64,000 nucleotides of DNA from Labyrinthula sp. Ha (lineage: Eukaryota; Sar; Bigyra; Labyrinthulida; Labyrinthulaceae): contig JAALGZ010000074.1 of NCBI GenBank assembly GCA_015227615.1, forward strand, positions 47,893-111,892, given 5' to 3'. Made by a program: the position numbers and the translations under genes. Numbering within the stretch: the first letter of the stretch is position 1; each line of letters starts with the position of its first letter. The notes under the pieces are model-generated. The model did no database searches. It saw only the letters and a list, made by a program, of their open reading frames with translations, and was not told where the DNA came from. This document shows positions 5,910 through 46,330 of the stretch, piece after piece.

Positions 5910-6008
5910 TAATGGTTTTTTCTTTATAAATTAAATGGGTGAAGTGTATTTATTTATTGTGTGAAATTTTTAAGGTTAACTAAATAAACTTTATCTCAAA
6001 TTGGAAAG

Positions 6009-6202
6009 TGTCGTCCTACCGACACGCTCTTGTTCCCCGACTCCCGGAAATGTGTTCCAAGTGTTCTAGCTCTATTTATATTTGTAATACCTGATATATA
6101 TACGCTTATTGCAATATAGCCGTTGAGAGATGTAATAACTTATCGGTTAAGCACTTCAAATCGACATCTAATCTTTGAAAAAACACTGTACAGAAATTGA
6201 CA
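6009..6202 (+). repeat. 5' LTR of element A
   Basis: 194 bp, starting TGTCG and ending TTGACA. It is identical to 14074-14267 except for one G/T difference near 6053. An AT-rich TATA-like stretch lies around 6075-6110. Confidence 0.95.
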
Positions 6203-6217
6203 TTATTCGAATAACGT
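6203..6217 (+). promoter_or_regulatory. Conserved palindromic motif at the primer-binding-site position of element A
   Basis: Directly after the 5' LTR comes TTATTCGAATAACGT, whose first 12 bases are a perfect palindrome. The same motif follows the 5' LTR of B (identical) and of D (one or two changes), although the LTRs themselves are unrelated. It lacks the TGG expected for pairing to a tRNA 3' CCA end. By position it should be the minus-strand priming site or a packaging/dimerisation signal. Which of these it is remains inference. Confidence 0.6.
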
Positions 6218-6228
6218 CCTGTTATAAG

Positions 6229-8175: not shown

Positions 8176-8234
8176 GAAAAAGGCAAGGGGGAAGTGAACA
8201 AACTCACCCTGGAGCCGGTCCAGAGAACGCACAA

Positions 8235-9294: not shown

Positions 9295-9297
9295 AAT

Positions 9298-12200
9298 ATG
9301 GTAAGGCTTAACAAAATAACTGTGCCCACCAGTCTATCTCTTCCGAACCTGGAAAGACAGTTACTATCTGTCCGTGGCTCACGTGTATACGCAACGTTGG
9401 ACATACTTTCGGGTTTCGACTTTTTAGAAACCGAGGAAAGGTCCAAAGACATCTTCACGCTGGTAACAAGAAGGTCGGCCTGGCGACTCAGAGGTGCGCC
9501 AATGGGGTGGATGAACACCCCGGCCTTATTTTGTGAGCGAGTAGTCAACGAGGTAGTAGATGGAATTGAGGTTTTATTCGGTAGAGAAACCAACGGAGTG
9601 ATATGTTGGCTAGACGACCTATTAATATACGCGGAGTCTGAAAACAAGCTGCTGGGAATGCTAAAGCTGCTGTTGATAAGAGCAGAGCAGAAAAGAGTTC
9701 GTTTCAACTTGAGAAAATGCGACTTTGCAGCGCCGAAGACAATATGGTGCGGTCGCGAGATCAAAAACGGATTGTGGAACTTTTCTCCATCCTTCTACGA
9801 GAAGGTTTTGGAAATGGAGAAACCAGTATACAGACACCAGATAGCACAAGTTGTTTACTTAGCAAATTGGCTAAGCCCCAACATACCAAAGTTGGCGGAA
9901 CTGAGGAAGCCATTTGCCGACTTTGCTAACCTAGGTGGCAAGAAACTGGTGGACATAGAAAAGCTAAAGGAGAAGATAGTTTGGACAGATGCACTAAACG
10001 AAGCACACGAATTGCTAAAGGAGACGATAGCGCAGGCAAGCAACCGGTTTTTAACATCGTACGACCCAAGGAGTCCGCTGTTATTTTTCACGGATTCATC
10101 CTACGACGTCTGGTCGATGGCGATTTTTCAGGACGACCACAATAATATAACAAACGACATTCGTACACTCAGACCAAAGCCAATGATGTTTTTAAGTGGA
10201 ACTTTCACGCCCAGTGAGCAGCGCTGGCACATTGCCAGTAAGGAGTTGTATCCCATAATCTACTCCTTTGAAAGAGTGGGATTTTTACTCAGAACCCATA
10301 GTGGTGGTCTGTACGTTTACACAGACCACCGGGCATTATTATCGATCCTCAGAATAAAAGAAAATGAAAAAAGGATTTATTGGGATCGCCTATATAGATG
10401 GGCGATCCGGCTGCAGACCGTAGACTTCACGGTCTTTCACATACCCTCGAGAGACAACTTTGTCAGCGACCTGTTAACGAGGTGGGCAGTAGAGGAGAAA
10501 GCTAATGTAGCACGGGTCACGGCTTTTGAGAACCTTCAGGAATACTACGAACAAGGGAAGGAGGAAACCATCCAGTTAAGGGCGGACCTCGTAACTGACG
10601 AGGACGAGCCTCAGGAAGCGGATAAAATGCCCGAGGTCTCATGGCTCGACTCAGGGGCCAGACATCATTTGGAAGCAGTTTATTTTGAATCAGCAATAGA
10701 AGGGTTGGAATACGAACGCGAGCTGGCATCCAGCTTCGGTAACATCCGCAGCACAGCCGCGGTCCCAGCGCAAGCCAGCAGCAATGGAACAAGCAGGGGC
10801 GATAACAATGATGAAGGAACGTTGTTGGACCCGAGAATAGTATACCCAACGGACGAAACAATACCGAGCGCGTATAACAGCGTGGTAGAGGAGCTGTTTC
10901 AGGAACACATCGCGTATCTCTCGCCTTTCTACCACAAGAAATGGGAGGAATTTGACGAGAGGGTTTTAAAGAGGCGACAGGATAAGCTCAGCCAGGAATT
11001 TAGAAAGGAATGCGAAGAAAAAGAAGGCCTTCTATATAAGGAAGGGAAGTTGGTAATTCCTAGGTCATTGTGTTCGAGATATATCGTTACAAATCATATA
11101 AATAAGGCTCACCCGAGCAAAACAGCGGAGAACAGATATCTGAAAGCAGTTCATTTTGAAGGGGTAGATCGCAAATCCCTCGACCTGTTACTAAAAAGCT
11201 TTAGAAGGCGATGTCTCCACTGCCAGAGGGAACCCTTCCTCATACGGCGGCCATATAAGATGACGCCACTGGCAAGAAGAACACGCGAGATTATCCGCGC
11301 CGATTATTTATACATAAATAAGGCCGGATACATCCTCGCGGTGATGGATTCATGCTCCCGGAAAATAATGTTGGAACACGCGGAGAAGTGCACAGCTGGA
11401 AAGATGGTGGATACCATCCTGAGGTGGAGAGTCGACTTAGGCCTAGCAGACCAGTTCTGCGTCATCACTGACAACGGGTCACATTTCTCCAACAAGCTTG
11501 TAACCCGGTTATCAAAGGCCATAGGATTTGAGCAGACGTTCACCGTTGCCTACTCCCCTTGGTCAAACGGGAGTATTGAAACGGTGAACTCTCAGATCCT
11601 GAGGATAATTAGGTCTCTCACCTCCCAGTATGGGCTGCATGAAACAGAGTGGCCTGGCCTGCTACCAGTAGTCGCTTATGTACTGAACAATAGACCAGTT
11701 AGTAGGAGGGCAAACCTTACACCGAACGAGATTTTTATGCACTTCAGGTTGGAGGAGCCCCTCATACAAAGATCTATGAAGCACTTTGCGATCAGGATGC
11801 AACAAGACCTGTCAATGCCAGACAACACGGGAGATTTGCTCGAGAGCATAGATAGGTTCCGAGCAGAGCTAGGCGAAATACAAGAAAAGGTTTACAATTC
11901 CGCACGCCTTAAGCGAGACTTGGATCTGTCCAGGAAAAATAAGAACAGGAAAGTCCTTTTGCAATACGCTCCCGGAGACTATGTAATGATCTCGGAATGC
12001 GGGACGCAGAACGCGAACGAAAAGACTAAGCTCACGTGGCTGGGCCCGTACCAGGTGGTACGGGTCATATCGAATAGCGTGTACGAGGTGGAAAGTGTCA
12101 TGGCGAAGCTGAAGATTGTACATGCATCCCGCATGTGGTTTTATTCACACCGCCCGCCCACGCGGCACCCGCAGCTTAAATCCCTGTTCGTCCATAACTA

Positions 12201-12312
12201 CAGCAGCCTTGAGGTAAGCAAAATAAGGGAGATAAGTATTTCCGAAGGTTCCAGGCCAAGATACAAGGCCAAAGTCAGCTGGATGGGCTTTGAGAGAAGT
12301 AGGGATACATGA
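9298..12312 (+). pseudogene. pol: Pol core: reverse transcriptase, RNase H, integrase, GPY/F and chromodomain-like segment, element A
   Basis: 1004 open codons, copying element RNA into DNA and inserting it. The reverse transcriptase has the first Asp in ATLDILSGFD and the catalytic pair in WLDD (9607-9618), where most relatives have Y-x-D-D. RNase H shows FTDSS, a Glu in SKELYP and YTDHR. Integrase has a zinc finger of H-x4-H and C-x2-C form (about 11090-11225), the catalytic Asp near 11300, TDNGSHF and NGSIETVN. The GPY/F motif is LGPYQVV. A chromodomain-like VSWMGF...DT then runs into a TGA at 12310, where B has Trp. Gene order is that of Ty3/Gypsy chromoviruses. It continues in frame after the stop. 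Confidence 0.93.
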
Positions 12313-12363
12313 CAGGACCTGCAGAAACTACATGAAGACGTCCTGTTACTAGTCAGGAACTTT

Positions 12364-12708
12364 GTGGAAAGCAATTTAAAGGACGCTGAAGTAAAAACCA
12401 ATCTGTTGATACACCTGGAGCAGTGGGACACGGAAAAACTGGATCGCCTAAGAAAAAGGGGGAATAAACCTAAGAGAAAGAAAAGGAATAAGGTGAATAG
12501 GGTGAAAGTGCCGGGCAAGGAAGCCAAGTGCAGCTACTTGAAGATAGCTCCATATGGAAAGGAAAAGATGCCGGCAACAAAGGGCTGGTATGACGCGGAG
12601 AAAGAGATACTTGCGGCCCTGATATATAAATTCGGGTGTGGGAACTACGAGGGGTTCAAGTCAAGTAGCGACCTGCCGTATAGGACAAAGCAACAGCTTT
12701 CGACATAA
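12364..12708 (+). pseudogene. Chromodomain tail and Myb/SANT-like segment, element A
   Basis: In frame with the pol core upstream and the methyltransferase downstream. It starts in the helix after the chromodomain-like W-x-G-F motif, then has a very basic linker. It continues into a helix pattern W-x3-E-(x)-ILAALIYKFGCGNYEGF...R-TKQQL that resembles a Myb/SANT-type three-helix fold (about 12580-12710). It ends at TAA (12706), where B has Gln in the same context, consistent with CAA to TAA. The SANT assignment rests on the aromatic/Glu/Gly spacing, which is weaker evidence than the domains on either side. Confidence 0.65.
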
Positions 12709-12837
12709 ACTCAGAGGTTAATTGGAATCCAGTCCGTTGGTATTTTCCATGGCCTCCATTTCAAGCCAGAAAAAGCGAGAGAGTTTTTAGCGGAGAACTT
12801 TGGTATAAAAGAATTCCACCGCAACATACCGGGGAAA

Positions 12838-14064
12838 ATGAACCTCCTTAAGGAAAAAGAGCAGATACTGAAACAGTTCAAGGCTGAAATATGCGTCTCA
12901 CCAGAAGAGGCAGCAAAGGTCCCAGTGCCTTATTCCAGACGCCTGACACAACTGGACCACGTTAACCTGCTCATTAAGGAATTCAATGAACCAGAGTGCA
13001 AGAAGTTTTTGCGGAACACAAGTTTTACGAGCAAGAGAAAACTGGAAAAGCTGGCTGAACAATTCAGCACCGTCAGATCAGCGGGAACCAGGGAAAACGA
13101 AGAATACATTGAACTAGCCTACCGCCTGATGGTCGAAGTACCCGAGATTTGGAATGATTTATCGCTGCTTCGCACAGAAGTTATTTGCAGGATCGACGTG
13201 GAAATACCGCCTCTGCCTTTTGACTTGCCATTTACCTATAAACATGAGGCGGCGACGCTTTCTATCGACCTTAAAGGAAATAGAATAGAATTGACCTTCC
13301 TAAAGTTTGACTCACTGGATCAGATGCCCTTTAGGTTTTACTGTATAGGTGGAAACCGATACCAAGTGGCAGGGGCGACAGGTACCTTTTATTTGGAACC
13401 GCCGAACACGAAAATTATGATGGGTAATGTCTTCGACTTGAAATTCGACCATCATATGGCTAAGAAGAACATCTACACGCTTTTGGTAACGGATCCCCCG
13501 TGGAGGGCTGGAGTAGGTGACCCTACCAGAGGCGTCACTTTACCATATCCTACCGTCTCATCGCAGAAGTTTTCGCAAATGCAGTTACCTTTGAACCACT
13601 TCCCCTATGGCACGTTTTTATTCATTTGGGTTACGAACCTTAGTTTTAGTGAGGTGTTGGTTTGGGCGGAGAAACAGGATTTCTATATTAGTGACGAAAT
13701 GGGATGGATCAAAAGACACCCCTCCGGGAAGTTACATAAGTCCCTGGGCTATTTCTTGCAGCATAGCCAGGAGACCTGTTTGGTGTTTGAACGCCGATCC
13801 AAGCCGGAAGTGGTCTACCAGAATACCTTCGAAGAAGATAACCTGAAGTCTTTTTCTAACTATTTCTCTACCAACCCCTTGGATCCTTCGGTGAAGCCTG
13901 ACTTATTCTATAGAATGCTTGAAGAGACATTTCCTACTAGGAATAAAATCGAGTATTTTGGTAGGTGGAACAACATACGCTATGGCTGGACTACGTGTCG
14001 TCTGGATTTGGTTGCTCCGGCCCAACTGTCTTTTTTACAACACAGCCGTACCTCTACTTTCTAA
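12838..14064 (+). CDS. MT-A70 family N6-adenine methyltransferase module, element A
   Basis: MT-A70 enzymes transfer methyl from S-adenosylmethionine to the N6 of adenine in RNA or DNA. In this 408-codon C-terminal piece of Pol, the catalytic DPPW is at residues 219-222 (13492-13503). It is preceded by an NVFDL strand. The family's other blocks follow in order: LPYPTVS, FLFIWVTN, an aromatic WIKR, LQHSQETCLVFERR, KPDLFYRMLEE, and IEYFGRWNN...GWTT near the end. All MT-A70 core blocks are present and complete. Upstream, about 150 residues of a helical region are shared with B and C. The frame runs from pol through three stops. Whether it is expressed as part of Pol or from its own initiation is not visible. 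Substrate unknown. Confidence 0.93.
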   Translation: MNLLKEKEQILKQFKAEICVSPEEAAKVPVPYSRRLTQLDHVNLLIKEFNEPECKKFLRNTSFTSKRKLEKLAEQFSTVRSAGTRENEEYIELAYRLMVEVPEIWNDLSLLRTEVICRIDVEIPPLPFDLPFTYKHEAATLSIDLKGNRIELTFLKFDSLDQMPFRFYCIGGNRYQVAGATGTFYLEPPNTKIMMGNVFDLKFDHHMAKKNIYTLLVTDPPWRAGVGDPTRGVTLPYPTVSSQKFSQMQLPLNHFPYGTFLFIWVTNLSFSEVLVWAEKQDFYISDEMGWIKRHPSGKLHKSLGYFLQHSQETCLVFERRSKPEVVYQNTFEEDNLKSFSNYFSTNPLDPSVKPDLFYRMLEETFPTRNKIEYFGRWNNIRYGWTTCRLDLVAPAQLSFLQHSRTSTF

Positions 14065-14073
14065 AAAGGGGGA
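14063..14073 (+). promoter_or_regulatory. Polypurine tract of element A
   Basis: AAAAAGGGGGA directly abuts the 3' LTR. The equivalent tract in B (19379-19391 on the minus strand) has the same A-run then G-run form. It is the expected plus-strand primer. Confidence 0.85.
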
Positions 14074-14267
14074 TGTCGTCCTACCGACACGCTCTTGTTC
14101 CCCGACTCCCGGAAATGTTTTCCAAGTGTTCTAGCTCTATTTATATTTGTAATACCTGATATATATACGCTTATTGCAATATAGCCGTTGAGAGATGTAA
14201 TAACTTATCGGTTAAGCACTTCAAATCGACATCTAATCTTTGAAAAAACACTGTACAGAAATTGACA
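14074..14267 (+). repeat. 3' LTR of element A
   Basis: 194 bp, preceded directly by a purine-rich tract (AAAAAGGGGGA, 14063-14073) and followed by the AAAG target duplication (14268-14271). Confidence 0.95.
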
Positions 14268-14271
14268 AAAG

Positions 14272-17444: not shown

Positions 17445-17753
17445 GTGCCAGGTGAGTCTTCTGAAGGTAAGAGAAGAGCTTCTTGGCAGCCGAAGAAAGG
17501 TCTGTCAGCATCAAATGAAGAAATTAAAGTTGCGGTGGATCATTACATTCGACGAATGGATAGCCGCGGGTACATCAATCTGGTTTTACATGAGTTTCAA
17601 GTGAAAAAGTGCCAGAGATATTTGCAGAATAGTAAACACAATGCCAGAAAGAAGGTGTCGAATTTTTTGGAGAAGTTAAAGGAAGAGAAGGTTGCAATCC
17701 TGAAGGAAAGTGTAAGATGGAAAGAAAGCTGTTACAGCTTCATGCTCTGTTAG
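17445..17753 (+). pseudogene. Remnant of the helical region before the methyltransferase, copy C
   Basis: About 100 open codons. HYIRRMDSRGYINLVLHEF and KCQRYLQNSKHNARKKVSNF align with the YSRRLTQLDHVNLLIKEF region of A upstream of DPPW. The stop at 17751 is a decay lesion. Confidence 0.6.
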
Positions 17754-18386
17754 CGAAAGCCTGGACTGAAGTATCTAAAATGAATACGGCCATTACTTCA
17801 GTGTTTTGTTATGATGACGTTGGCGTAGCAGCCTGACTTCCACTTCGTTTAAAGAAGGTAGTTTCAACCTAACGAAGAACTACAAGAACAACAGGCTGCA
17901 GATGAATTTTTTGAACCTTTCGGTGAAAGAATATTTTTTGTTACGATTTATTTCTTTTGATGGTAACTCATTTATGATGCATTTGCAGAGATAAAATTCT
18001 TGTTTGGAGCCGCCGGATACAAGTCTTCTTTTTGAAAATATTTTAGCCTTAATATTCGACCGCCCGAGAAAAAAAGAAATATTTACACGTTGATTTTAAA
18101 GGATTCTCCACGGCATGTTGGCATTAGAAATCTTAAACGAGGCGTCATATTTCCTTATCCTACGATTTCTAGAAGTAAGTTTTAAACCCTGGATTTACCT
18201 TTCATTCCCTTACCGTTCTGTACTTTTCAATTTGTCTGGGGGACTAAGCAGAGTCTGGAAAAGGTTTGGATTGGCAAAAATATTAAAATTTCTTTCTAAC
18301 CGATAAAGTGACTTGGCTAACAATTAATATGTCTAGAAAGTTATAACTCAACCCGTTATTTCTTACAACACAGTCAAAAGACTTGT

Positions 18387-18575
18387 TTGCTTTTTCAGAG
18401 ACGTACAAGACCAGATATAAACCATCAAAATACTTTTGAAAAAAACAAATTGCAATTCATTAACAACTGCTTCTACAGAAACCCATTTGGGTTTTTAGTT
18501 AAGATCAAACTGTTTTGTCTGATTTTGCAGCGAACTTTGGCGACGCACCGTACCACAGAATATTTTGGAGGGTGA
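18387..18575 (+). pseudogene. Remnant of the C-terminal methyltransferase core, copy C
   Basis: FQRRTRPDINHQNTFEKN corresponds to FERRSKPEVVYQNTFEED of A, and TTEYFGG to KIEYFGR. The frame is interrupted directly after. Confidence 0.65.
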
Positions 18576-18878
18576 AACAACATAAGGATGGCTTGGACGA
18601 CTTGTGAGTTGGAGCTTACAGCACCTGGCCAAATTTCGCTTGTATAACCGAGCCGTAAAGGCTTTCTCTAGAAAGGGATGGCAACGTTTGACGCGCATTT
18701 ATTCTACTACACACCTTGGTATGTAATCCCGTTTCGCGTTCTAAATTCCTTGCGGTTTACTTGAATTCTTTTAGTGTGAAATTAGGTTATGTATCATATA
18801 TCTAGAATAATTAACAATACAACCGTTTATGCCTTAACTAAGATTCCTAAATTTCATTAAAAACTGTACAGTTGAAGA

Positions 18879-19196
18879 CACACGGAACCAAATTAAAATT
18901 CTTCCCAAACTAAAGACTCATCTCCCCCATCGACCAATAGGTCGATTCGCAACAGAGTTCGTCCCAATGAGAACAAGCCCATAGAAACCAAACAGCCCAC
19001 GCAAGGTCAATTTTTGTGAACGTACTGACGTACTGAAACAGCAAGTACGATTTGATAGGGAGCATCGTGCATGTAACTTACGTCATATATGTGTAAGTTC
19101 AAATAAGCACAAAATGAATAATAAAAAAGATAAAGCAAATGAATATATTTTTTTTTCTTTATTTGAAAATAATTATCATAACCAACAAGTTATTAG
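18879..19196. other. Short intergenic stretch between copy C and element B
   Basis: No gene is seen. It contains a small palindrome (GACCAATAGGTC, near 18938) and ends in TTAG, the 4-bp target duplication of element B (19193-19196). Confidence 0.4.
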
Positions 19197-19378
19197 TGTC
19201 TTTCTTCCTAGGATAGATAAAAAGTTAGTGTAAGTGTTAAGCGTTAACGGTAAGGTCGATATTATGTCAAACCGACAATAAAGTGTTTGTATTTCAAACT
19301 ATGTTACAGAATATAGCAAGGGACTATGATAGTCGTGTAATCCAGGAGTACACACGTCAGTCCAGTATTGCATGGACA
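19197..19378 (-). repeat. 3' LTR of element B
   Basis: 182 bp, bordered inside by the polypurine tract (19379-19391) and outside by TTAG. Confidence 0.93.
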
Positions 19379-19391
19379 TCCCCCTATTTTT
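19379..19391 (-). promoter_or_regulatory. Polypurine tract of element B
   Basis: AAAAATAGGGGGA on the element strand directly abuts the 3' LTR. Confidence 0.8.
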
Positions 19392-22002
19392 AGGAAGACT
19401 CTCTGCGGTTCGGAGACAGGTAGGCTAAGTGCGTCTTCGGTTCCAGATCCAAGCCAATCGCAGTCCATTGAGACCTGACGTTGTTACTTCTGGAGAAAAT
19501 GTCAACTTTGTTAGCGAAAGGATAGAGTTCATCGAGAATGTAATAAAACAGTTCGGGCTTTGTAGAAGGAGTAGCAGTGTAGGTTCTTAAAACAGAATTG
19601 AATTTTTTCTTGTCGACTTCGTTAAAAGTATCGGCGTATTTTAAATGAGGTGAGGATCTTCTTTCAAAAACCAAACATGTTTCCTGCGAGTGCTGCAGAA
19701 AGTGACCCAGACTTTTGAAAAGTTCACCGTGTTTAGTGTATTTGATCCATGTGATGTAGTCGAATAAATAATATTGCTGTTCTGCAGCCCAATTCAGAAC
19801 ACAATGATAGCTAGAATTAGTAACCCAGACATACAAATGAAAACCAAAAGGAAAATGCGACAAAGGTAATTTGATCTTTTGAAACTCATGTAAAGATAGC
19901 GTAGGATATTTCAAAGCCACACCACGAGTAGGGTTTTTACTACCAATAGCCCATGGAGGATCCATGACAGCGACTTGAAAAATGCTGTTTTTAGATTTAG
20001 GTTTGTAAAATTGAAGGTCGAAAATATTAGTAATGTAAATTTGTTTGCAAGGAGGTTCAAAATAAACAGTAGCTTCACTTCCATCAATGAGAAAAATATT
20101 TCCTCCAAGATATTTTAAAATAATTTTCTTTTGTGTTTCAACTTCGAGATAAACAAGTTTGACGGAATCAGCATCAAGAGAGATGACTAATAAATTACTG
20201 TAATGTTTAAATCTAGTTAGTAAAGGTTCAGAATCAATCTGTGAAATATCTTCTTCAAAGGGTAAAGTAAGAATAGAATACAAAGAACTAAGCGTGATCC
20301 ATATTTCTTCATTTGAGAATAAAAATCTATTTAAATGATCCAATAATTCTTCGTTGTTAAAAATAGTTTCACGAACATCTTCATTAAAACTTTTAATAGA
20401 ATCTTGTATTTCTTGAAGAGAATAAATATTATTGTCAACCAAAAAACGTTTAGCTTCTGTAAGTTCAAACTCTTGTAATAATAATCTTAAATGTCGTAAG
20501 TCATCCAATCGTCTGAAGTACGGAACAATTGTAGATGATCCATCAAATAGAGTAACTTCTTGTCGAAAGAGCTGTAAAATATGTTCCTTTTCTAAAAGCG
20601 TATTAAAAGAACCAGGGAGATTCTTGTGAAAATGATTTATACCAAAATGTTTAGATAAAAAGTTTCTTGCATCTTCCAATTTGAATTTTAATCCATGAAA
20701 TATTCCAATTGCTTGAAGATTTAAAAGTCTTTGGAGCTGCGTTGCGATCTGCTGTTTGCTCCTAAAAGGAAGAGCATTTGACTTCAGATAGTCCATGTAA
20801 CATCCACAACCATATTTAAGAACGAGAGCTTCTAAAACAAGTTTTTCTTCCGGGTACCAGCCTAAAGTATTCCCCTCTGGAGATCTGTCAATATATCTAA
20901 GTTTGGTAAATTTAACTTGAATACGCTGAATATTTATATTTCTTCTTCGATTTGGTTTAGTGTCGTATTTTTTCTTATCTATTTTTTCCATCAGAACTAA
21001 TAAATGTAATCTTTTTCCTTGATCATGAACTTCTTCTTCAACATATTTTCTAACTAGAATCGGAAGATCTTGGTACATCAGCTCGAAATCTTGCCATGTG
21101 TCTTCATTGGCGTCAAAGCCTAACCATCGGGTCCTAATTTCGTAATGAGCTTTGATGTCCTGAGAGAAACGTATTCCAATGAATTTTTCTACTTCTAGAG
21201 ATTGAAAATTATGAATAAAAAGAGCTTTTAATTTTTTGTTTCCTAAAGGTCGGCTGTCAGAATACCACCAAAGTCTGCTACCATGAACTAATCTTATTTT
21301 GTTCGTAAGAGATTCGACAGAATAAACATTTTTTGAGAAAATATCAATGATTTGGTATGGACCTAACCATGTCAGTCTCGTTTTCTCCTTGGCACTTTGA
21401 GTACCCTCTTCTGAAACAAGAACGTAATCTCCAATGTTAAGTTGGAGTAGTAAATTGTGATTTGGATCCTTTAATTTATTATCTGCTTCTCTTTTAAGTA
21501 GGACGTTACTATAGATTTTAGAATGTAAATCTTCCATGAGTTTAGAAATATTATCAGCCTCTTCTAATAAAGTGCTAACTTGATCCAGTTCTAATATTTT
21601 ATCCGCGAGATGTATAGCGAAATGTTTAGGATCTTGTAAATAAAGAGGTTCTTTGATACGAAAATAGAGAAATAGCTCATTGGAAGTAGCATTTAATCTT
21701 CTTGACATTGGTTTATTATTGATAAGGTAAGTGATCATGGGTAACAGAGTCGGCCATTCTGCTTCCTGTAATCCAAACTGAGAAACTAAGCTGCGCATAT
21801 AGCTTAAAATTGTTGAATTAACAGTTTCTATTGCCCCATTAGTCCATGGTGAATAAGCAATAGTATAACTTTGTGAAAACCCAACTGCTCTTGAAAGTTT
21901 TGAAAGCAGTTCATTTGCAAAATGAGAACCATTATCTGTGACTATTAGAAAGGCTTGAAGAAAACCATAGTTTGATCTCCAAGTTAATAGAGCATCAACC
22001 AT
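19390..22002 (-). CDS. pol: Integrase core, GPY/F, chromodomain-like, SANT-like and MT-A70 methyltransferase, element B
   Basis: 870 open codons. Begins in the integrase core (TDNGSHF, NGAIETVN), then GPY/F (LGPYQII), and a chromodomain-like segment with the full RWLGF...EDTW (about 21090-21150). The basic linker follows, then the SANT-like WYPEEKLVLEALVLKYGCGCY...R-KQQ (about 20750-20870). The helical region leads to a complete MT-A70 domain: DPPW near 19955, LKYPTLS, FHLYVWVTN, LQHSQETCLVFERR, KPELFYYILDE, VDIFSRSNN. This is the intact version of what A carries in three broken pieces, and proves that integrase, chromodomain and methyltransferase share one frame. The first Met here is not a true start. 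Confidence 0.93.
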   Translation of the reverse strand: MVDALLTWRSNYGFLQAFLIVTDNGSHFANELLSKLSRAVGFSQSYTIAYSPWTNGAIETVNSTILSYMRSLVSQFGLQEAEWPTLLPMITYLINNKPMSRRLNATSNELFLYFRIKEPLYLQDPKHFAIHLADKILELDQVSTLLEEADNISKLMEDLHSKIYSNVLLKREADNKLKDPNHNLLLQLNIGDYVLVSEEGTQSAKEKTRLTWLGPYQIIDIFSKNVYSVESLTNKIRLVHGSRLWWYSDSRPLGNKKLKALFIHNFQSLEVEKFIGIRFSQDIKAHYEIRTRWLGFDANEDTWQDFELMYQDLPILVRKYVEEEVHDQGKRLHLLVLMEKIDKKKYDTKPNRRRNINIQRIQVKFTKLRYIDRSPEGNTLGWYPEEKLVLEALVLKYGCGCYMDYLKSNALPFRSKQQIATQLQRLLNLQAIGIFHGLKFKLEDARNFLSKHFGINHFHKNLPGSFNTLLEKEHILQLFRQEVTLFDGSSTIVPYFRRLDDLRHLRLLLQEFELTEAKRFLVDNNIYSLQEIQDSIKSFNEDVRETIFNNEELLDHLNRFLFSNEEIWITLSSLYSILTLPFEEDISQIDSEPLLTRFKHYSNLLVISLDADSVKLVYLEVETQKKIILKYLGGNIFLIDGSEATVYFEPPCKQIYITNIFDLQFYKPKSKNSIFQVAVMDPPWAIGSKNPTRGVALKYPTLSLHEFQKIKLPLSHFPFGFHLYVWVTNSSYHCVLNWAAEQQYYLFDYITWIKYTKHGELFKSLGHFLQHSQETCLVFERRSSPHLKYADTFNEVDKKKFNSVLRTYTATPSTKPELFYYILDELYPFANKVDIFSRSNNVRSQWTAIGLDLEPKTHLAYLSPNRRESS

Positions 22003-22601
22003 AGCACTTGCTGTTGCCCCCTCTGAAAAGACATCTGTATCTTTCTTGTTGCTGAATCTAGAATAACAAGAATATAACCCACTGAATTGACATAGAGATA
22101 ATCAGCCCTTAATATTTCTCTGGGCTTCTTTGCCAACTTGGTAAGATTGTAAGGTTGTCTAATTAAACGAGGTGATCGATTGCAATGAAGACATTTATTG
22201 CGAAAAGTATTTAGAAGACTTGTAACATTCTTTCTAGGTAAACCATGAAAGTAAACTTCAGACATATATCTCTTTTCTGCCTCTTTACTAGGATGACCAC
22301 GTTGAGTGTGGTTAACAATAATATATTTAGTAAAAAACTTCTTTGGAATAACTAATCTTTCACGAAAATATAATAAATCATCCTTGACCGAACATTTATT
22401 CTTGAATGAAATAGGTAATTTCTTTTGTGATCTCTTAATTTCATCTTCATCAAAGTGCTTCCAATCTTTCTTAGGATAAAAAGGTGAAAGATAAGAAATG
22501 TGCTCCCCAACAAACATATTTTCCAACTCAGAAACGACAGCTTCTGGCTGTTCCTCTTGAGGATCCAACAAAGAATAATTTGAATCTCTAGAAATCTGCA
22601 T
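21984..22601 (-). pseudogene. pol: Integrase zinc-finger segment of element B
   Basis: Contains H-x4-H and C-x2-C (NHTQRGHPS ... CLHCNRS) and the first catalytic Asp (RADYLYVN). The next frame takes over after an indel near 22017. Confidence 0.88.
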
Positions 22602-25504: not shown

Positions 25505-27157
25505 CTATTTTTTCTCTTTAGATCTATCTGCATTCGTAAGATCCAGCGTAATCTCAAAGTAATCTAAAGTTTTCTTGCCAATTATATAATCTGACCAAGT
25601 AGGAACGTCAACACAGAAAAATCTCTGCACTCCTAAATTGAATTCTGTTTCCCCTTGAGATAATTTGGCTCTTGCGGTAATTACCTTTTTGATTGGTAAA
25701 ATCTTCCCATCGAGAAGTTCAACTTGTTTAATGTATCTTGGTTCTTCTTCTTTTATAGAATAGTTCCTCATTAACTTCAGACTTGAAACATTGCGCGATG
25801 CACCAGTGTCCACTATGCCTTGAACACTTTCGAAATTATTAGAATGAATATTTTTCAAACTCAAACTGATGTCTTGACGTGATGCACCTATTTTCCCTAC
25901 TTTAATCGAGAAGACTCTGTTATTCTTGTTTCGCCTATTCTTTGAAGGTTCTTGCTTATGTACTACAACTTGCTTCTTAGTAAATGATTTTAATCCAGAA
26001 CGATTATTCATAAAAGCTTGTTTAATTCTTGGAAGGTTGAGGTGTTTAGCCCCTAGCATCAGCTCATCCAACTCTAGATGGATAGATGTTGGAGCCTTTT
26101 TCAATAAAATCTTTACAATTCTTTTACGATGTTGATCCATTTCACTTTCAGTAAGGAATCTCAATATTTTATTTACACTGTCGAAGTAAAGGTATATTTG
26201 TTCTTCTGGAGATAAAGATCGTGATGGCCACTCAAGCTCTTCGGCAAGATTGGTTAAACATCTCGCACGATTTATTCTATCAAACTTAGAGACGTGCTTC
26301 TTTAAATATTTGTAAATAGAAAAAGAACTGGTAACATCGACACCTCTGTGTCTTAAACTCGAAGTAACATCTTCTGTCAAAAGAGCCTGAATATTTAAAT
26401 TTGGAACATTTGTGGCGATTCCATCAAAATCATGAAGAAAATTAATAATTGATTTCTGTGTAAGTTCCCTTAACTTAGGAGGAAGTTGAAATTGAACCAA
26501 TGGAACACCAGAAGGTCTGCCTTCAGAGACAGTGTGCTGCCTGTAGTTGTATTTGTAAGCTTTTTTGTTCGCGTTTTTATCCACATAGGAGCTACCAGTC
26601 TCACTCCATGGGTCGAGTGATCGATAAGACATGGCACTTCCTGCATATTTTTTAGGTCTTTCTTCTTCTTTAGGATGTTCTTGATGTGCAGGAGCTTCAT
26701 TTTCAGCAGCATTTTCGTAAGATTCAGGAAGATTAGATAGTCTTTCACCTTGTTGAGCTTCTTGTTCATTGAAATATGCTTCCCTCTCTTCTAATTCTTC
26801 TTGTCTCCTTCTAAGAACATCCTGCAGTTGATCATTAGCTTCCTTTTGCTCCATGAGACTAGTCCGGAGATCCTCATTAGCCGCTTCGCGCTCAGCAAGT
26901 TGCTTAGAAATGCGCTCCAGACGGCTTCTCTCCCTTTGCTGCCTCAAAACTTCAGAAAGAACTTCGGATTGAACTAAGTCATCGGTCCCAGTGGCACGCG
27001 TCGCCATTCTCGCAGGGAAATCTTGAGCTTCGTCCGCAGACGTAGGAGGCTAGGGAGTTTCGTCTATAGGTGAGTTATTCGAATCGGTTTGTTCATTTGT
27101 GGGAGAAGCCTAAGAAACTGGATTTGAAATAGTTTCGGAGGTCCCTTGATCTGTCAT
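25505..27157 (-). pseudogene. gag-pro: Gag-protease of element B with two nonsense codons
   Basis: The ATG at 27157 lies 23 bp inside the LTR, as in A. The frame has TAG near 27110 and 27052, both in contexts where CAG would continue, and is then open for 500 codons from 27007. The N-terminus has a long Glu/Gln/Arg coiled coil. The PWSETGSSYVDK patch and capsid-like region follow A closely. The protease active site reads DTGAS and the C-terminal segment IIGKK. The stop TAG at 25505-25507 is at the same position as that of A, and related coding sequence continues after it in the same frame. Confidence 0.85.
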
Positions 27158-27164
27158 TTCTTCG

Positions 27165-27179
27165 ACGTTATTCGAATAA
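27165..27179 (-). promoter_or_regulatory. Conserved palindromic motif at the primer-binding-site position of element B
   Basis: On the element strand the sequence after the LTR is TTATTCGAATAACGT, identical to that of A although the LTRs are unrelated. No TGG start is present. Confidence 0.6.
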
Positions 27180-27361
27180 TGTCTTTCTTCCTAGGATAGA
27201 TAAAAAGTTAGTGTAAGTGTTAAGCGTTAACGGTAAGGTCGATATTATGTCAAACCGACAATAAAGTGTTTGTATTTCAAACTATGTTACAGAATATAGC
27301 AAGGGACTATGATAGTCGTGTAATCCAGGAGTACACACGTCAGTCCAGTATTGCATGGATA
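27180..27361 (-). repeat. 5' LTR of element B
   Basis: 182 bp. Its outer end reads TATCC on the element strand instead of TGTCC, a probable C-to-T change on the + strand at 27360. Otherwise identical to the 3' LTR. Confidence 0.93.
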
Positions 27362-27482
27362 TTAGTAATTGTATAAAAATGAGTTCGTTTCCCTTCGAAA
27401 AAATATTAACCACCTATGTCTCTGTCACAAATTGTGAATTTGCCCAAAATGTCAAAATACGAGGAAACTCCACATCTGCCAA

Positions 27483-38725: not shown

Positions 38726-39639
38726 TTATTCGAGTAACATATTTTATTTGAAATCGAGCAGGAGAACAATTACAAGGCACCTTCACCGGAAGACATCTTC
38801 CCATTGAAAAAAAGAATTAGAGATAAATTGCATATGGGAGCGATGATATCACGATTCTTTCTGATTCAGAGGATAATGTAGAAAATCAATTTGACAGAAA
38901 ATCTCTATCACCTGAGATATCTTCCAATTAATTCAAAAATATCCTTACATATATGCAGCAAAGGCACCGCGTAAATTTTGTAGTATGTGTCTTGGAGAAC
39001 ACGAATCGAGAAACCAAGGGGGTGGAGAAGCTCCTGGCGAATTTTCATAGCGGGAAACAAAACTTTTAGATGTTTCAACCACTGATAACCTAGAAGTATG
39101 GTGTCTTCAAGTGAAATTGATATATTGTATGTACTCCTCTGGATAAAACAGTTCTTCCCAGTTTGAAACAAAATCTTGGTATAAAACCAACTGGTACATC
39201 TTTATTAACACAAAATCACCTGAGGGTTAGAATAAGCCTTCTGTTTCCATTGAAATAACATAAATTGAGAAACCGAGAGATAATCATACTCACCAGCAGT
39301 ATATATGGCATCCCGATGTTGATAAGACAAAGAAAGAAGAAAGAAAAGCAAACGAGCAAGCACTAGAAAAAAGTGGTAAACTTCAACATATAGTAAAAAT
39401 ACCAGGGCTAGCAGAAAAAATATACAGAATGATTGAAGTCAATAAGAAGCCTAACTCCACGGGTTTAACTTCTTTGGTTGAGATCCTTGATCTTAAATAG
39501 GTAGTTATATCCTAGAGAAGACCTATGATAAATATATTGTGGACGTTTTTTGTCTATGACTCACCCCAATTAAATCTCAGAAGTGCTCTTGTTACTGTAC
39601 TTTTGTTATCAACACAGTTAAAAAAACATAGAGTCTTCT

Positions 39640-40640
39640 CTTAACACCTTTCTTCATGAATTTAAGGATATCTCCCAATGTATCCCTGCGTTAACAGTAA
39701 AAGGTTTATTAATCAAGAATGCTGTAAGTTCTTTGCAAACTAAGGGAGTCAGCACTTCTACCGGGTAAGACATTATTGTATATCTTAAACATCAGTTAGA
39801 TTTGACTTAAGCACCTAAGGTATTGACATACCTAGCCAATATAGACAAGAAGCCAAGGCAATCAAATGAATAGATGCCAATCGAACACTTAGTTTAAAAC
39901 TTCTTCAAATATATATATATATATATATATCACGGACTGAAAATTTTGAGTGGACAGAAAATGAAGATAAACAAAGAATAAATACTTAATATAGTACTCA
40001 AAAGGCAATTTTATGTGTTAAAATACTCTTTAGATAAATTTATACTTGTTTCAGGAAGTGATGTTTATCTACTCTGGAGAAGATTTTCTTTTTTAGACGA
40101 CACGGTTTGTCGATTCAAAGAAGCACGAAAAAACTGGGCATCAAAGGGCAGTAAAAAAACTACATGCATAAAAGTCTTGGAAGAAAACTTAAAACATCTA
40201 TAGTTTCAAATAATCTATTGAAAATGAGCCCATAAACCCCTTCTAAATCCGAAAGCAATGACAAGGCTCGTACATTTAACCATCTAGGCGACAATGCCAC
40301 TGTGACATATGTTTAACTTCATCATATCAGGGTGAAAAGAAGAGTCCCTATGAAAGACCTTCCTGATACAGGCTCTAAATTAAAGCCAAAGCCCGAAGAA
40401 ACTTGAGTTTTTATTCTGAGTATCAACCTCCGGCACAAGATTAAAATAACTAAATTCCAAAAAATGTGGTTAATCTTATTTTTAGGCGAGAAAGTTAACT
40501 TCCTTCCAAAAAAATAATCTTAACCTTGGAAAGGTTATATTGGTTCTAGTACACTCCCAGATTTTAAACAATGTGATAGTCGGAATGAATACTATAAAAA
40601 CGAGTTGTGTAGCTTTGCAATTGAAACTCATAAACAAGAA
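39640..40640 (+). pseudogene. Gag-protease remnant of element D
   Basis: Three frames together align with the capsid and protease of A. The active-site DTGS is still readable near 40360 and the NNVIVGMNT segment near 40570, with intervening stops. Confidence 0.7.
39910..39933. repeat. (AT)n microsatellite
   Basis: Twelve or so AT units inside the Gag remnant of element D. Confidence 0.85.
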
Positions 40641-41284
40641 ATAAAAACAAAAACAACGTTTAGGCGGGAGCAGAATAGATATAATTATTCTATAGAAACT
40701 ATACCAAAAAACAGAAGACCCAGAACCACATGTAAAAATTAGAGTTCTTATGAACAATTGTGTTATATCGGTCAACAAGGAAAACTTCAAGAAACAAGCG
40801 GCAACTTATACAGTCCTGTTTCTTATAGCTCCAACTTTAAAGTGGCGGGGGATTATGATGCCCTTAATTAAGAAAAGGGCTTTTTGGTTTGCAAAATTAT
40901 TCATATTTATTCTGAGAATTACCCTACCTTTGCATTCTGGTCTATTATAACAGACCCTAAAGAATATAAAATGATCAGGTTCTTCAAAGATATGATAGAA
41001 CTCGGGAAGTGGGATTATCATAAAAACACTGCTGTCGCAGATATTAACGTGGATACAGCTGAGATGAAAACGAAAATTATTCAAGACAACCCAAGGTAAG
41101 TAGCTTACATTTGAATGGACCCTAATCTTATTTCCCGAGCTTAACGCTCATTTTACAAGCTGCATAGCAAACTTAGGTGGAAGGCATTAGAGGTATAGCC
41201 CTAGAAAAAAATAATCATTCCTTAGACCTAAGTGATGGCAATGGTGGTGCATATATACTCTGAATTCTCGTCTCCAATTTGTTA

Positions 41285-44200
41285 GGCAATATACCCGAGG
41301 AATTTAATCAAACATGAATAGGATAGGGTAACATTACAGAGGATGAAGAAAAGTTATTACTTACATCAATGATAGCATAAAATATCAAGGAATCAAACAT
41401 AACAGAATACTCAAAAATCAGTTATCCACCTCTCTTAGCAGGAAACAGTGGGCACAAGGACTTAAGAAGTCCGAAGTGCAGATATCACTCACCACACCCA
41501 TTTTGGTTATTCTCAAGGCCGGGTTATATATTCCCATTTCCGGGAGATATCGACTAGTTATAGAGCAAGAAAACTTGCTAGAGTATAAATTCGTAACGCT
41601 TCGGGGTGCTGGGGTCGAAGAAATTGCTAGAAACCCGTCTCGGGCACTGTGTTTTTCGAGTTCTAAAAGAGGATAATAACCGAGATTTGGAGAACAATCT
41701 TCAGAGGAGGAAGATAATTGGAAACCCCAAAACATATTGAATTTATATCCAATACCTTCCAACATGGGTACAATCAGTAAAAAATCATATCAACGAGTTT
41801 GAGTTCGACATATTTGGAGTATCAGTTGCTACCTGTGGGAGCTTCATAATTTTATGCGATACTGAATAATCTCCAGTTTTAATGTTTGGAAAACAAAGCA
41901 ATATCTCATGGATATATTCGTGGTTTTTACCAAAAAATTGACATGATGTCTAAGCGGTGTCCTAATGGGATGGGTTAATACACCGATCTAATTTTGTGAT
42001 GAAATGGTAAATAAGGTTATTGACGGCTTTGAGACCCCTTTTGCTGTAGATATAAACGGCGAAATTCTTAACCCATATTATTTAATTATTTATGTAGAAT
42101 CTGAAGGGAATTTATTTTAATTTTTGGGCTGCTCTTTGTCCATGTGGTTAAGATACAGATGAGATTTAATCTGCGTATATATGACTTCGCCGCAGAAACA
42201 ACATTATCGTGTGATAGACAGATAAAAAATGGGTTATGGAACTTTTTACCAACTGTTTAATCAAAATTTTATCGATGCAAAACTTACAGTATCGACATAG
42301 TATTGCTCAAGTTTTCTTTTTCACAAAATCACTCAGAAAATTTGTTTCCAGAACTGCAGTGATAAGGAAACCATTCGCAGTATTTGCGAATTTGAAAGAG
42401 AAGGAACTGAATAACATAGAGAAGCTTAATAAGGAAATATTTTTCCTCAATGTAAAGGTTGTGACAGCTACTTTTCGTTGATACATAACCATCAAAGAGT
42501 TCTATCCTGATATGTACACCTTTAAGTAGCTCGGGTTTCTTTTAAGAACCAACCCTGGTAATATATTTAGTTAAATTGATCATCGCCCTCTTCTTTCAGT
42601 TATCGGAGTTAGAGAAAATGAATAGTTAATCTGCAGAAATCAACTATATAGATAAATAATCCGTTTGCAATCGTTGGACCCTAAAGTCTTTCATATCCCT
42701 CTAAGGGTAACCTTGTTAGCGATTTAATAACCAAATGGGTGCTAGAGTTGAAGCCTCAGCTTACCATGCTAACTGGAGCCTTTGATGAAAAAATGAAATT
42801 TCAGGAAGAAGACGGGTGATTAACCTTTTTTTTATAGATTTGAATGATGAGGAATAAAAAATGTTTTATAAGCTTCCAGAAGATATGCTACACAGCGCAG
42901 ATGATGTTAGAATGAGGATCCTATTTTGATAAAGCGGATTTCAAAAGGTTAGGCAAATGGGTGGAATATGAAATCCGGATCTGGCGGCTCTTTCATAGCT
43001 AAAACAATGGTTTTGACAGATTTGACACACGGTTGGTCAACATACATGCAATAAGCAGTAATCAGCTGTAGTATTCGTGAGTGAAAAAGAATATCAACAG
43101 CAATCCGAGTCGGCCAGTGTAAATAAACGGGTTAAAACTGTCGACAAAACTATTCACAGCAAGTTGAATACTGTAATTGGGAAGCTCTTTAACAATTATA
43201 TTGCTTATTGCTCTCTTTTATATTACGGAAAATGGTCGCAACTGTACGACAAGATTATAGTAAAATGTCAGAAAAGATTTTGCGAAGATTTCAAAAGTTC
43301 ATCCTCGTTGATTGAGGAGCTGACGTATTCTCAAGGAAACTTGTCATTGAAAGAAGAATTTCCACATGATTTGCGGTAATAAATCATACCAAAAAGGTTT
43401 ATATGAGAAGAGCAGCGGGTATGAAATTCCTGAAAGGGGTTCATCTCCATGACATAGATCCTAAAAATCTCAAGCTGCTCAGGATTAATTTTTGAAGAAC
43501 ATGTCTATATTGGCAGGGATAACCTACCCTAATTATAAGATCCTACAAATTGGTATCATTAGCTTGGAAATTTTAGAATGTTTCCTGGGGAGGTTACCTT
43601 TGTGTAAACTCCACCAGGTATATATATGTATATATATTGACTTTAAAGGATTTAGATTGACTGACAGTTATGCTGAGGTCTCCACAGAAGCTTACAACTC
43701 AATCGATATTAAAATTGTTATTGAGATGACGGGTAAACCTAAGTTTTGCAGGGAAACCCTGTATAATAAGCGACAGCGGATCGCATTTCACCAACCAGAT
43801 AAAAAAATGGTATCCAATATAGTATTTCAACAAAATTTCACCGCCACCTTCTTCCCATGCTCCAGTTAAATTTTGAAATCTACAAACTCGCATATTCTAA
43901 AAATTTTTAGATCACTAACCTCCGAACTCGAACCCTATGAAGAGGATTGGATTAAATTTTTTCATACATAGCACACATTCTCAACGATTTACCTGTTTCT
44001 CTCCACCCGGATCTGATATCAATGAAATATTTCTAAGTTTCGATCTCGACATATTGTTAATCCTGAAGTGAAAAAAATACTTTCTCTTCATCTGAAAGGG
44101 GACTTTGCTTATCTTCAAAATATGGAGGGTATGATGCAAGAAATCGAAGAATTACGGAAGGTAATAAACGCGGAGCGGGAGGTTATCTACAATTCAGCGC

Positions 44201-44450
44201 AATTGAATCTACAAGTGTAATTATAGAGAAAAAACAACGCAAAGAGATTGATATTTTAATCTAACCCTGAAAACTATGTAACGGTGGCAGAGCAAGGAAT
44301 TCAAGAGACTAATACCAAGACAAACTTAACGTGGCTTCAACCTTCCCAGGTGTTCAGTGTCATTTCACAAAGCGTCTATGAGGTAGAAATCATTATGGGA
44401 AGATGAAAGATAGACTATGAATCCAGACACTGACACTATTGGTCTAAATT
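41285..44450 (+). pseudogene. Pol remnant of element D (reverse transcriptase to GPY/F)
   Basis: Fragments of the NIPEEFN patch, reverse transcriptase, RNase H, integrase and GPY/F are recognisable by order and by matches to A. The WLDD site and integrase Asp residues are lost or unreadable. The longest open pieces (43077-43379 and 43492-43869) are decay products. Confidence 0.65.
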
Positions 44451-44639
44451 AGTGACTATAGTAACGATGTTAAAATCTTTATTCACACTTAATCTAAGAG
44501 AACTGAAGGTAGAAAATAAAGAAGATTCTACCGGTAACATATCCTTAAGTTACATATGAGGTGCAATTACGCCGGAGAAGGTTCGAATACCCGAAAAACA
44601 CAATGTGGAGTTTGAACCAACTGTATGAAAACTTGGTGC

Positions 44640-46330
44640 AGATGATGTGTGGGTTTGTTGAAGCTAGATTAACGGATTCCTCGATGAAAAGAAATATACT
44701 TGTTCAGATGGCTCTGTGGAATGAGGAGTAAATTAGCAAATAAAATGCAAAGAACTAACCAATAAGAATCAATAGACCAAAAATAAAAGGGAAACAATGT
44801 TCCAGCCGTTAAAAATATCATTATTTGTAAGAATAGAACATATTGAGTCATGAAGTACAGAAAAAAAAGAAATGTTTGAAGAGGAGATACAAATCCTGAA
44901 GACTCTAATTGTAAAATATAGATATGGAAATAATAAAACTTACCTTAGACATCCATATCTCCCAATCATTCAAAATAATAGATTTCATTCCAGATTCAGG
45001 GGCTGCTGGGTCTGCAATTAACCGGGATATTCCACGGGAGGGATTTTCAAGTGGAAAAAGCTCACAAGTTTCTCAAAAGCAACTATGGGTTAAAAGGGCT
45101 TCAAGAGAACAATCCTTGCAGAGTGATTTTTTCAAGGAAAGGAAAAGGTACTCAAACAGTTCGATAAAAAATATAGCCCCCTCAGCTTAGGTAGATGCCA
45201 TTTTTAATCTATATTTTCGTAAACTGAATAATCCCAAAGATGACAGACTAACTTTACAAGGATTTTAGAGCAGCGAATACTAATGCTTCTTCCAAAATAC
45301 TTTCCATAATACAAGAGCGTGGCTAGAAATACTTTTGAACAAATTTTACGAAGCAGAAGTGTCTTTACTTAAGGAGAGTGAAAACTAGCTTGAAAGTTGC
45401 TAAGAACTGGTCCTCGAGGATAAAGAGGTTTGGAAAGATATGTCTAAGATGTATTTTACTCCTACTGCAGTTTTTGATTCTGAGTATTTTGATGCATCAA
45501 CTAAAATAACTATTTATTTCAAGCAGGTAAGCTCAAATATTATATTGTTTTCCAAGGACAAAAAGCTAGAACTTTCTTATCTGGATCTCACATCAAAGAA
45601 TATATCCCCTCTAGCCATTTACTTATCCTGGAGGTAATCTATTTACTATGGATAAACAGAAAGGAACTTATTATGAAGAACCAACAGATAAGCGTTTGTT
45701 GTTTGAGTTATCCTTGATCTCAATTTTGATACTCCTGCTGCAAAGAAGAACATCTGTACCATTTTCATCACGGATTCCCCATGGAGGACTGGAAGTAAAA
45801 TACCCAATTAATATGTTACATTTTTTTTGTACCATGATTTCAAATGCTAAGTTTAACACTTCGAACTTTTCATTTAATTATTCTCCATTTGATTATTTTT
45901 TATTTACATGAATTACGATTTAAAGTATAGGGACTGTTTTGGAATGGGGTAAGAATCAGAAGTTCTCTTTAAAATCTGACTCAGGTTGAATCATAAGCAA
46001 TAAGCCAGAGAATGTACATAAGTGGAACGGCTATATTCTGCAACATAGTCAAGAGACTTGCATTCTGTCTGAGCGTCGCACAAGTCCCAAGATCAAGCAC
46101 GAGAATACTCTAGAAGAAGATAACCTGAAGCTCTTCGAAATTGCTTTTACTGCAATCCCTTGGGTCTATCCGGTAAGTCTAAACTCTTTCACCAAATTTT
46201 TGAAGAAACGTTTCCTACCCGTAATGCTAACAAATATATTGGGCGTTAAAACAATATACGGATGAACTAGATTACTTACGGATTGGACCTTGCTGCACCT
46301 GCGCCTCTAACTTTCTACAATATAGGCTTC
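44640..46330 (+). pseudogene. SANT/MT-A70 remnant of element D
   Basis: From the helix after the chromodomain (QMALWNEE) to the end of the methyltransferase. The catalytic block reads TDSPWRTG (DPPW to DSPW), then LQHSQETC and NTLEEDNLKLFE. It shows that the module was already part of the family when this old copy inserted. Confidence 0.75.

Follow-up and report, generated by a model that had tools for sequence, protein, structure and literature searches.

Transposons are often silenced by 5-methylcytosine (5mC). Among Ty3/Gypsy retrotransposons with long terminal repeats (LTRs), chromoviruses are those with a chromodomain, their domains following one another in the order reverse transcriptase (RT), ribonuclease H (RNase H), integrase and chromodomain. 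Retrotransposons that have captured a DNA methyltransferase (DNMT) have been described as KnitGypsy-Dnmt3 (Klebsormidium nitens), SymbioDIRS-Dnmt3 and SymbioLINE-Dnmt, and the available portion of that report gives de novo CG methylation in yeast as shown for SymbioDIRS-Dnmt3 and as inconclusive for KnitGypsy-Dnmt3 (PMC5890265). Here we analyse a stretch of 64,000 nucleotides from Labyrinthula sp. Ha (contig JAALGZ010000074.1, positions 47,893 to 111,892), hereafter called the window. It probably holds members of a large and in part recently active LTR lineage of Ty3/Gypsy type, in which the end of Pol is a captured module for N6-methyladenine in DNA (6mA), consisting of a Myb segment similar to p1 and a methyltransferase (MTase) similar to AMT1/MTA1.

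Two elements of Ty3/Gypsy type in the window, A (6009-14267) and B (19194-27362), have LTRs at both ends and 4-bp target duplications around them, CTAA in the case of B; their parts are listed in Table 1. The stop codon of the MTase of A ends at 14064, 9 bp ahead of the 3′ LTR, and 10 bp separate the two in B, with purine-rich tracts adjoining in both elements. The 8.26-kb unit A, MTase included, was inserted in one piece, since the other arm of an inverted duplicate within the window keeps the site without A and with a single AAAG. An earlier note on this DNA had described a Ty3/Gypsy retrotransposon with an MT-A70 domain at the C-terminus of Pol, and this description holds: the domain lies between the LTRs, moved together with A, and forms a single frame with Pol in twelve of the 20 stretches fetched from the genome. 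Both stretches in which the domain had been noticed score over the Pfam cut-off for MT-A70 (23.9 bits), namely 12838-14061 in A (E 2.8e-14, 53.9 bits) and 19393-22002 in B (E 2.2e-18, 67.2 bits). The further claim that MT-A70 continues the Pol frame stands for B, where 19393-22101 is one open frame from the integrase through to the end of the MTase (MT-A70 2.3e-18), but not without interruption for A, in which RT, RNase H and integrase (9295-12309) and MT-A70 (12709-14061) are in the same reading frame with stops in between. The in-frame stops of A are TAG at 9292, TGA at 12310-12312 and TAA at 12706-12708, and a frame change falls within 8172-8632. B is broken upstream of its long open frame, and both window copies are defective. 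In that frame of B the matches to rve (0.015) and chromo (0.028) are under the Pfam cut-offs; the chromodomain-like segment of the earlier note is thus weak in the window, and exceeds the cut-off in three of the eight relatives scanned (L017, L020 and L024). Two things go beyond that note, a p1-like Myb segment ahead of the MTase and the remnants of two more copies, C and D.

Relatives were sought with MT-A70 in the whole assembly (50.8 Mb, 153 contigs). The results refer to the 150 best-scored of 354 candidates, all over the cut-off, which include the AMT1 of the host and leave out the window's own copies, these scoring lower. Among these best 150 of 354, the open frame reaches at least 1000 amino acids (aa) in 53, at least 1700 aa in 33 and at least 2000 aa in 19, and the same search gave no signal in any of 14 named control genomes. 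Twenty stretches were fetched, with preference given mainly to long frames and high scores; the proportion of 12 in 20 is therefore not a rate. The twelve (L009-L013, L015-L018, L020, L021 and L023), on 12 different contigs, have a single stop-to-stop frame of 2107-2655 aa with the MTase at its end. The frames of the gag side and the pol side are parted by one in-frame stop in L014 (TGA), L022 (TAG) and L024 (TAG), which could be a site of readthrough or a mutation; L025-L028 are otherwise broken, and stretch L019 was misplaced. Eight elements were scanned with Pfam (L009, L013, L014, L015, L017, L020, L022 and L024; five of them with a single full frame). All eight have RT, RNase H and integrase in that order (in L017, RVT_1 at 709-872, RT_RNaseH at 974-1092 and rve at 1276-1367), with rve over its cut-off in four, and all eight have MT-A70, at E-values from 3.5e-17 to 1.3e-36. 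A Chromo match follows the integrase in six, over the cut-off in the three named above and below it in L009, L013 and L014; L015 and L022 gave no match to Pfam Chromo. A CCHC knuckle was found by Pfam in two of three separate gag frames.

LTR pairs of 93-100% identity are present in 17 of the 20 stretches, as well as in A and B (the pair of L016 lies partly inside its stretch), and none was found in L015, L019 and L022. Kimura two-parameter (K2P) distances between the LTRs range between 0 and 0.05 across A, B and the 15 stretches for which they were calculated. Pairs without any difference, in L010, L021 (ends trimmed) and L024, indicate recent insertions. With the flanks judged by eye, 4-bp target duplications were seen in 14 of 17 assessable LTR-paired elements, the exceptions being L011, L023 and L024. 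A perfect palindrome of 12-18 nt was also observed at the junction of the 5′ LTR and the internal part, the position expected for a transfer RNA (tRNA) primer site, in all 17 elements tested (beyond the window, for example, in L013, L014, L018, L020 and L021), a length reached by 0-1 of 145 background windows per element; it may have a part in priming or in RNA dimerisation. Self-priming by the LTR found no support, the LTRs of eight elements tested holding no complement of the primer region longer than 8 nt.

RT and MT-A70 in one open reading frame (ORF) occur elsewhere too, as the earlier note had thought worth looking for. Two polyproteins from other public contigs (ena), P0003 (2015 aa) and P0004 (2013 aa), are listed with Pfam domains for RT, RNase H, integrase and MT-A70, and alignment shows the Myb segment in them as well. 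Their parts follow the same order, and they are 25% identical to B of the window over the C-terminal part. Searches of viral_contigs with P0003 and P0012 gave no relatives, and a protein search with the element profile A1 mostly returned fragments from the same genome. These data bear on the reading that the MTase stands next to Pol by chance, through an assembly error that joined a host gene to it, or as a separate host gene beside dead elements. The broken state of the window copies and the separate AMT1 gene of the host would fit such a reading; it conflicts with the LTR-bounded unit with its duplication and empty site, with one-frame fusions on 12 contigs and two more on other public contigs, and with an identity of just 31-39% between host AMT1 and element MTases, and we regard it as hardly credible. 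The objection foreseen in the earlier note, a host gene never joined to Pol, likewise fails on the genomic side, MT-A70 lying inside the LTRs and being fused to Pol in intact copies. An artefact of assembly or gene model is rejected in view of the LTR pairs, the duplications, the empty site and the repeated one-frame fusions.

As to the class of METHYLTRANSFERASE, a profile of 11 elements scored 241.6 bits against Tetrahymena MTA1, 157.8 against METTL3, 89.7 against METTL14, 67.4 against METTL4 and 45.4 against MTA9. Taken singly, all 17 element MTases scored highest against an AMT1, 17 to 80 bits above the METTL3 and METTL4-type references, the set being three AMT1 (Tetrahymena, P0012 and host), one METTL3 and two METTL4-type sequences. 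With the roles of MTA1 residues taken from the available text of PMC9852454, all 17 elements keep the catalytic Asp (D209 of MTA1), R357 and N360, and 13 of them keep S332. An insert with the motif PxRG is found in all 17 elements and both AMT1 rows, and in none of the three METTL3/METTL4-type rows. An AlphaFold2 (AF2) model of B (19393-20865; mean predicted local distance difference test, pLDDT, 65.1; predicted template modelling score, pTM, 0.47; 18 sequences) had MTA1 (7yi8_B, 1.5e-16) as its top Foldseek match. Judged by sequence, the element MTase is to be classed as AMT1/MTA1-like, of the DNA 6mA type, rather than as METTL3.

Several observations weigh against the reading of a captured 6mA module. 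N370 and E371, which contact the ribose of S-adenosylmethionine (SAM), are each kept in just six of 17 elements, and neither is kept in A or B. The motif DPPW is present in 12 of 17, with DPPY in L020, L021 and L023 and DPAW in L013 and L014. The MTases of L009 and L010 scored 108.2 bits against METTL3 and 110.6 against Tetrahymena MTA1, and were 3 bits apart in a second comparison; the AF2 model of L009 (mean pLDDT 72.9, pTM 0.46) had METTL3 first in Foldseek (2.5e-17), with MTA1 about equal (7.4e-17). Host AMT1 is itself 39.9% identical to METTL3, as close as it is to the elements. In a small MTase tree a clade of AMT1 and elements was absent from the best tree but also not rejected (approximately unbiased, AU, p 0.226 and 0.203); deep order is weak in the MTase trees, one of which places METTL3 and METTL4 rows, on weak branches, within the elements. 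It should be noted that the MTA1 rows align to the L009 model from chain residue 135 on, including the stretch ahead of the MTase, and that we take this part of MTA1 to be its N-terminal helix, the one that binds p1 and p2. The list of structure matches for this model is filled by the MTase (366-556) and is uninformative there on p1 or protease.

The interval from chromodomain to MTase contains a Myb-like segment in 21 of 23 aligned sequences; the two exceptions are A, with a segment that starts within 12313-12705 before a stop interrupts it, and L027, with a frame that starts later. The Myb segment of L009 alone has p1 of the Tetrahymena MTA1 complex as its top PDB match (E 2.3e-17), and a profile of 14 elements matched p1 residues 24-219 with E 3.5e-25, the next Myb protein following at 2.9e-8. 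Because the match of L009 extends beyond the Myb domain to p1 residue 157, the segment is considered p1-like and not just any Myb. With p1-like and AMT1-like parts in Pol, the element unites in one chain the relatives of two subunits out of the four that make up a DNA 6mA writer. PMC12695648 reports p1 and p2 solely alongside AMT1, and substrate DNA is likely accommodated by MTA1, MTA9 and p1 (PMC9852454). Here, too, there are points on the other side. The p1 match was obtained with L009 singly and with the 14-element profile, and the Pfam Myb model matches L015 alone of the eight elements scanned. K44, K46 and K47 of p1 are partly kept among the elements, none of them in B of the window. No second MT-A70 stretch corresponding to MTA9 or AMT6/7 occurs in the eight scanned polyproteins, which have one MT-A70 each, and for p2 there was just a match of E 0.14 to the Myb part of L009, no dedicated p2 search having been made; in Tetrahymena the complex is made up of four subunits.

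Three groups, L009, L013/L014 and L015/L016, have their p1 and AMT1 parts separated by a retropepsin-like segment (LDSGA ... G), with RVP over its cut-off in L016 (8.1e-7) and L015 (1.3e-5) and weaker matches, below the cut-offs, in L009, L013 and L014. Ahead of RT, a weak protease match is present in L017 and window B; for L009, L013 and L015 Pfam gave none in the N-terminal part. This inner retropepsin-like domain may cut the module apart.

The earlier note had left it between methylation of the element's own RNA and of DNA around its insertions. DNA is favoured here, and the idea of its own RNA disfavoured, because the MTase is closest to AMT1/MTA1 and is accompanied by a relative of the DNA-binding p1. 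An enzyme that writes N6-methyladenosine (m6A) on the genomic RNA of the element, for stability, packaging or escape from sensing, would draw on the fact that MT-A70 is the family of METTL3 as well and on the nearly equal scores of L009-type MTases against METTL3 and MTA1. METTL3 has RNA-binding zinc fingers; beside the MTase of the eight scanned elements Pfam found no RNA-binding domain, zinc fingers of the METTL3 type not having been searched for singly. RNA methylation may matter to some elements, given that another Ty3/Gypsy lineage, in orchids, carries an m6A RNA demethylase that is active in vitro, as stated in the available part of PMC9289625. Against an RNA writer stand the affinity of 17 of 17 MTases to an AMT1, the PxRG insert, and the fused relative of p1, a protein that PMC12695648, in the text available, ties to AMT1 alone; we hold such an activity to be unlikely.

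Of 12 pairs compared for the ratio of replacement to synonymous change (dN/dS), seven were close enough for synonymous sites, some of them with broken copies, and the other five were saturated in most parts. In these seven pairs the ratio is 0.06-0.27 in the MTase part (4 to 9 replacement changes each) and 0.07-0.14 upstream of the Myb segment (gag to integrase). This bears on the view that the module is mainly a chromatin or DNA tether, or a competitor of the host AMT1 complex that binds host AMT6/7 and p2, catalysis being secondary. The chromodomain and the p1-like part both suggest targeting, the DPAW and DPPY variants and the variable N370 and E371 would be compatible with reduced weight on catalysis, and the stretch of the L009 model that aligns to MTA1 from residue 135 on is placed as the p1/p2-binding helix. 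The catalytic Asp in 17 of 17 elements and the low dN/dS of the MTase part speak against this view, which appears distinctly improbable to us.

The groups L017/18/20/21/23, L009/10, L013/14, L015/16 and P0003/4 are common to the pol tree, taken among these elements alone, and the MTase tree, which argues that the module has long travelled with Pol. The AMT1 of the host is 60.9% identical to P0012 and 54.5% to Tetrahymena AMT1, well above its identity to the element MTases given earlier. Since host AMT1 is nearer to other AMT1s than to the element MTases, the capture appears to be old and not recent from this host. Recent capture of host AMT1 is not supported, and a grouping of host AMT1 with the elements of this genome alone is rejected (AU p 0.0035). 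Either a single capture or several may lie behind the elements, for which, as one clade, two MTase tree tests gave AU p of 0.126 and 0.0527.

The likely function of the module, as predicted from these comparisons, is 6mA on element DNA. As Pol products travel with the complementary DNA (cDNA), the p1-AMT1 tail would be packaged with Pol and would be placed to methylate adenines (in ApT, the site reported for AMT1) in the double-stranded cDNA or in the new insertion. The module would probably need a second MT-A70 subunit, either host AMT6/7 or a second copy of itself, none being visibly encoded by the element. As the host has its own AMT1 gene, a 6mA pathway is probably present in the cell. For AMT1-bearing eukaryotes, PMC12695648 reports 6mA in permissive chromatin and at ApT sites, so the mark could keep a copy active or native-looking. 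A new copy would thereby gain the mark of transcriptionally permissive host chromatin, and a methylated copy might stay expressed, look native or escape recognition as foreign. That an old LTR lineage, found in this genome and on contigs elsewhere, writes the host-type 'active chromatin' 6mA on its own cDNA or insertions as an anti-silencing tool is a proposal to which we give an even chance. If it is true, the element and not the host would be the writer of 6mA around these copies.

Table 1. Coordinates of features of the elements and of related sequences (window positions unless a stretch is named)
Feature	Position	Strand	Basis or remark
Element A target site duplication AAAG	6005..6008 and 14268-14271	.	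flanks; single AAAG at empty site
Element A 5′ LTR	6009..6202	+	99.5% identity to 14074-14267; one difference in 194; K2P 0.0052
Element A 12-nt palindrome, just inside 5′ LTR	6203..6214	+	primer-site position
Element A gag-like open segment	6205..8172	+	34.7% identity to the segment of B; no Pfam family matched
Element A RT, RNase H, integrase, integrase C-terminal domain	9295..12309	+	RVT_1 2e-12; RT_RNaseH 3.5e-15; rve 3e-7 (31.1 bits, cut-off 32.6); Integrase_p58_C 7.6e-7
Element A end of chromo region and start of p1-like Myb segment	12313..12705	+	35.9% to B 21093-20740; alone without meaningful Pfam match; ended by TAA 12706-12708
Element A linker and MT-A70 (domain ~13474-13995)	12709..14064, TAA stop included	+	MT-A70 3.4e-14; top PDB match MTA1 2.2e-24
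Element A 3′ LTR	14074..14267	+	repeat pair with 6009-6202
Element A pre-insertion (empty) site, inverted duplicate	49576..49579	.	gapless 207-nt alignment to the joined flanks, 198 positions identical
Element B 5′ LTR	27177..27362	-	98.9% identity to 19194-19379
Element B gag and protease-like segment (protease ~25661-25828)	25508..27049	-	Asp_protease_2 0.011, below cut-off
Element B reverse transcriptase segment	23486..24166	-	RVT_1 4.6e-13
Element B RNase H segment	22625..23461	-	RT_RNaseH 2.3e-16
Element B N-terminal integrase segment	21987..22601	-	alone without Pfam match; 45.6% to the integrase region of A
Element B open frame: integrase C-terminal part, chromo-like, p1-like Myb (~20566-20865), linker, MT-A70 (~19450-19980)	19393..22101	-	Pfam; AF2 model and Foldseek
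Element B 3′ LTR	19194..19379	-	repeat pair with 27177-27362
Decayed third copy C, MTase part	17445..18656	+	tblastn 30.8%, E 1e-47
Decayed fourth copy D, with collinear remnants of gag, RT, integrase and MTase	39631..46315	+	tblastn
Host AMT1-like gene	L029:2318-3277		in its 5-kb stretch, all seven top element matches among those listed concern the MTase part

Copy C may also include a gag-like ORF at 15841-16458 (Retrotrans_gag 0.018, below the cut-off). The inverted duplication of the window pairs parts of 1-15340, without A, with parts of 48502-59238, about 6.9 kb being common at 93-97% identity, and each of its arms has a 600-aa Roc/Ras-like ORF. Within about 3.8 kb unique to one arm, a 718-aa ORF (53006-55162) has a weak match, below the cut-off, to a phage-integrase SAM-like N-terminal domain and is a possible tyrosine-recombinase element. 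Furthermore, host genes for an STT3-like (27483-29948) and a seipin-like protein (30052-31551) are present, each as a single open frame.

In titles and abstracts of the open-access literature, subscription papers lying outside the search, no MT-A70 in an LTR element was reported, and mt-a70, reverse transcriptase and integrase came together in PMC8885841 alone, which, in its available text, deals with bdelloid rotifers and N4-methylcytosine (4mC). The elements described here represent a known type of event, the capture of an MTase by a retrotransposon, with a different chemistry (6mA) and a module of two subunits. The following comparisons refer to the portions of the cited papers that were available. 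Like these elements, KnitGypsy-Dnmt3 has a eukaryotic DNA methyltransferase in the Pol ORF of a Gypsy element, and the elements of that report have Ka/Ks below 0.2 and a proposed self-methylation of cDNA, similar to the low dN/dS and the same proposal here; their enzymes are cytosine DNMT3, with DIRS-like repeats and no p1 partner named, whereas MT-A70, ordinary LTRs and 4-bp duplications are found here (PMC5890265). DIRS elements likewise encode adenine MTases, but these are Dam-like (PMC5890265); the enzyme described here is of the eukaryotic MT-A70/AMT1 class, has a DNA-binding partner and belongs to an LTR element with an integrase. The orchid Gypsy elements with an AlkB m6A demethylase are also Ty3/Gypsy elements with an acquired enzyme of adenine methylation; unlike those of the window, they are 25-kb plant elements that demethylate m6A in RNA by means of an additional ORF (PMC9289625). 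The captured enzyme class belongs to the 6mA system of permissive chromatin (PMC12695648), and a parasite that writes the 'on' mark of its host would be a testable move in an arms race. As mobile sources of AMT1-like genes, the elements are also a trap for counts of MT-A70 genes per genome. Chromoviruses have the same order of domains as these elements, which add to it about 400-600 residues from the start of the Myb segment to the end (p1, linker and AMT1). The MTA1-MTA9-p1-p2 complex of Tetrahymena combines, as the element does, an AMT1 catalytic part with the Myb-like part of p1; it consists of four separate proteins (PMC9852454), whereas the relatives of p1 and AMT1 form one chain in the element, with a retropepsin-like segment between them in one clade. 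Compared with the ciliate complex of four subunits, this natural p1-AMT1 fusion is a candidate 6mA writer of simpler make-up, and could show which of the subunits are needed.

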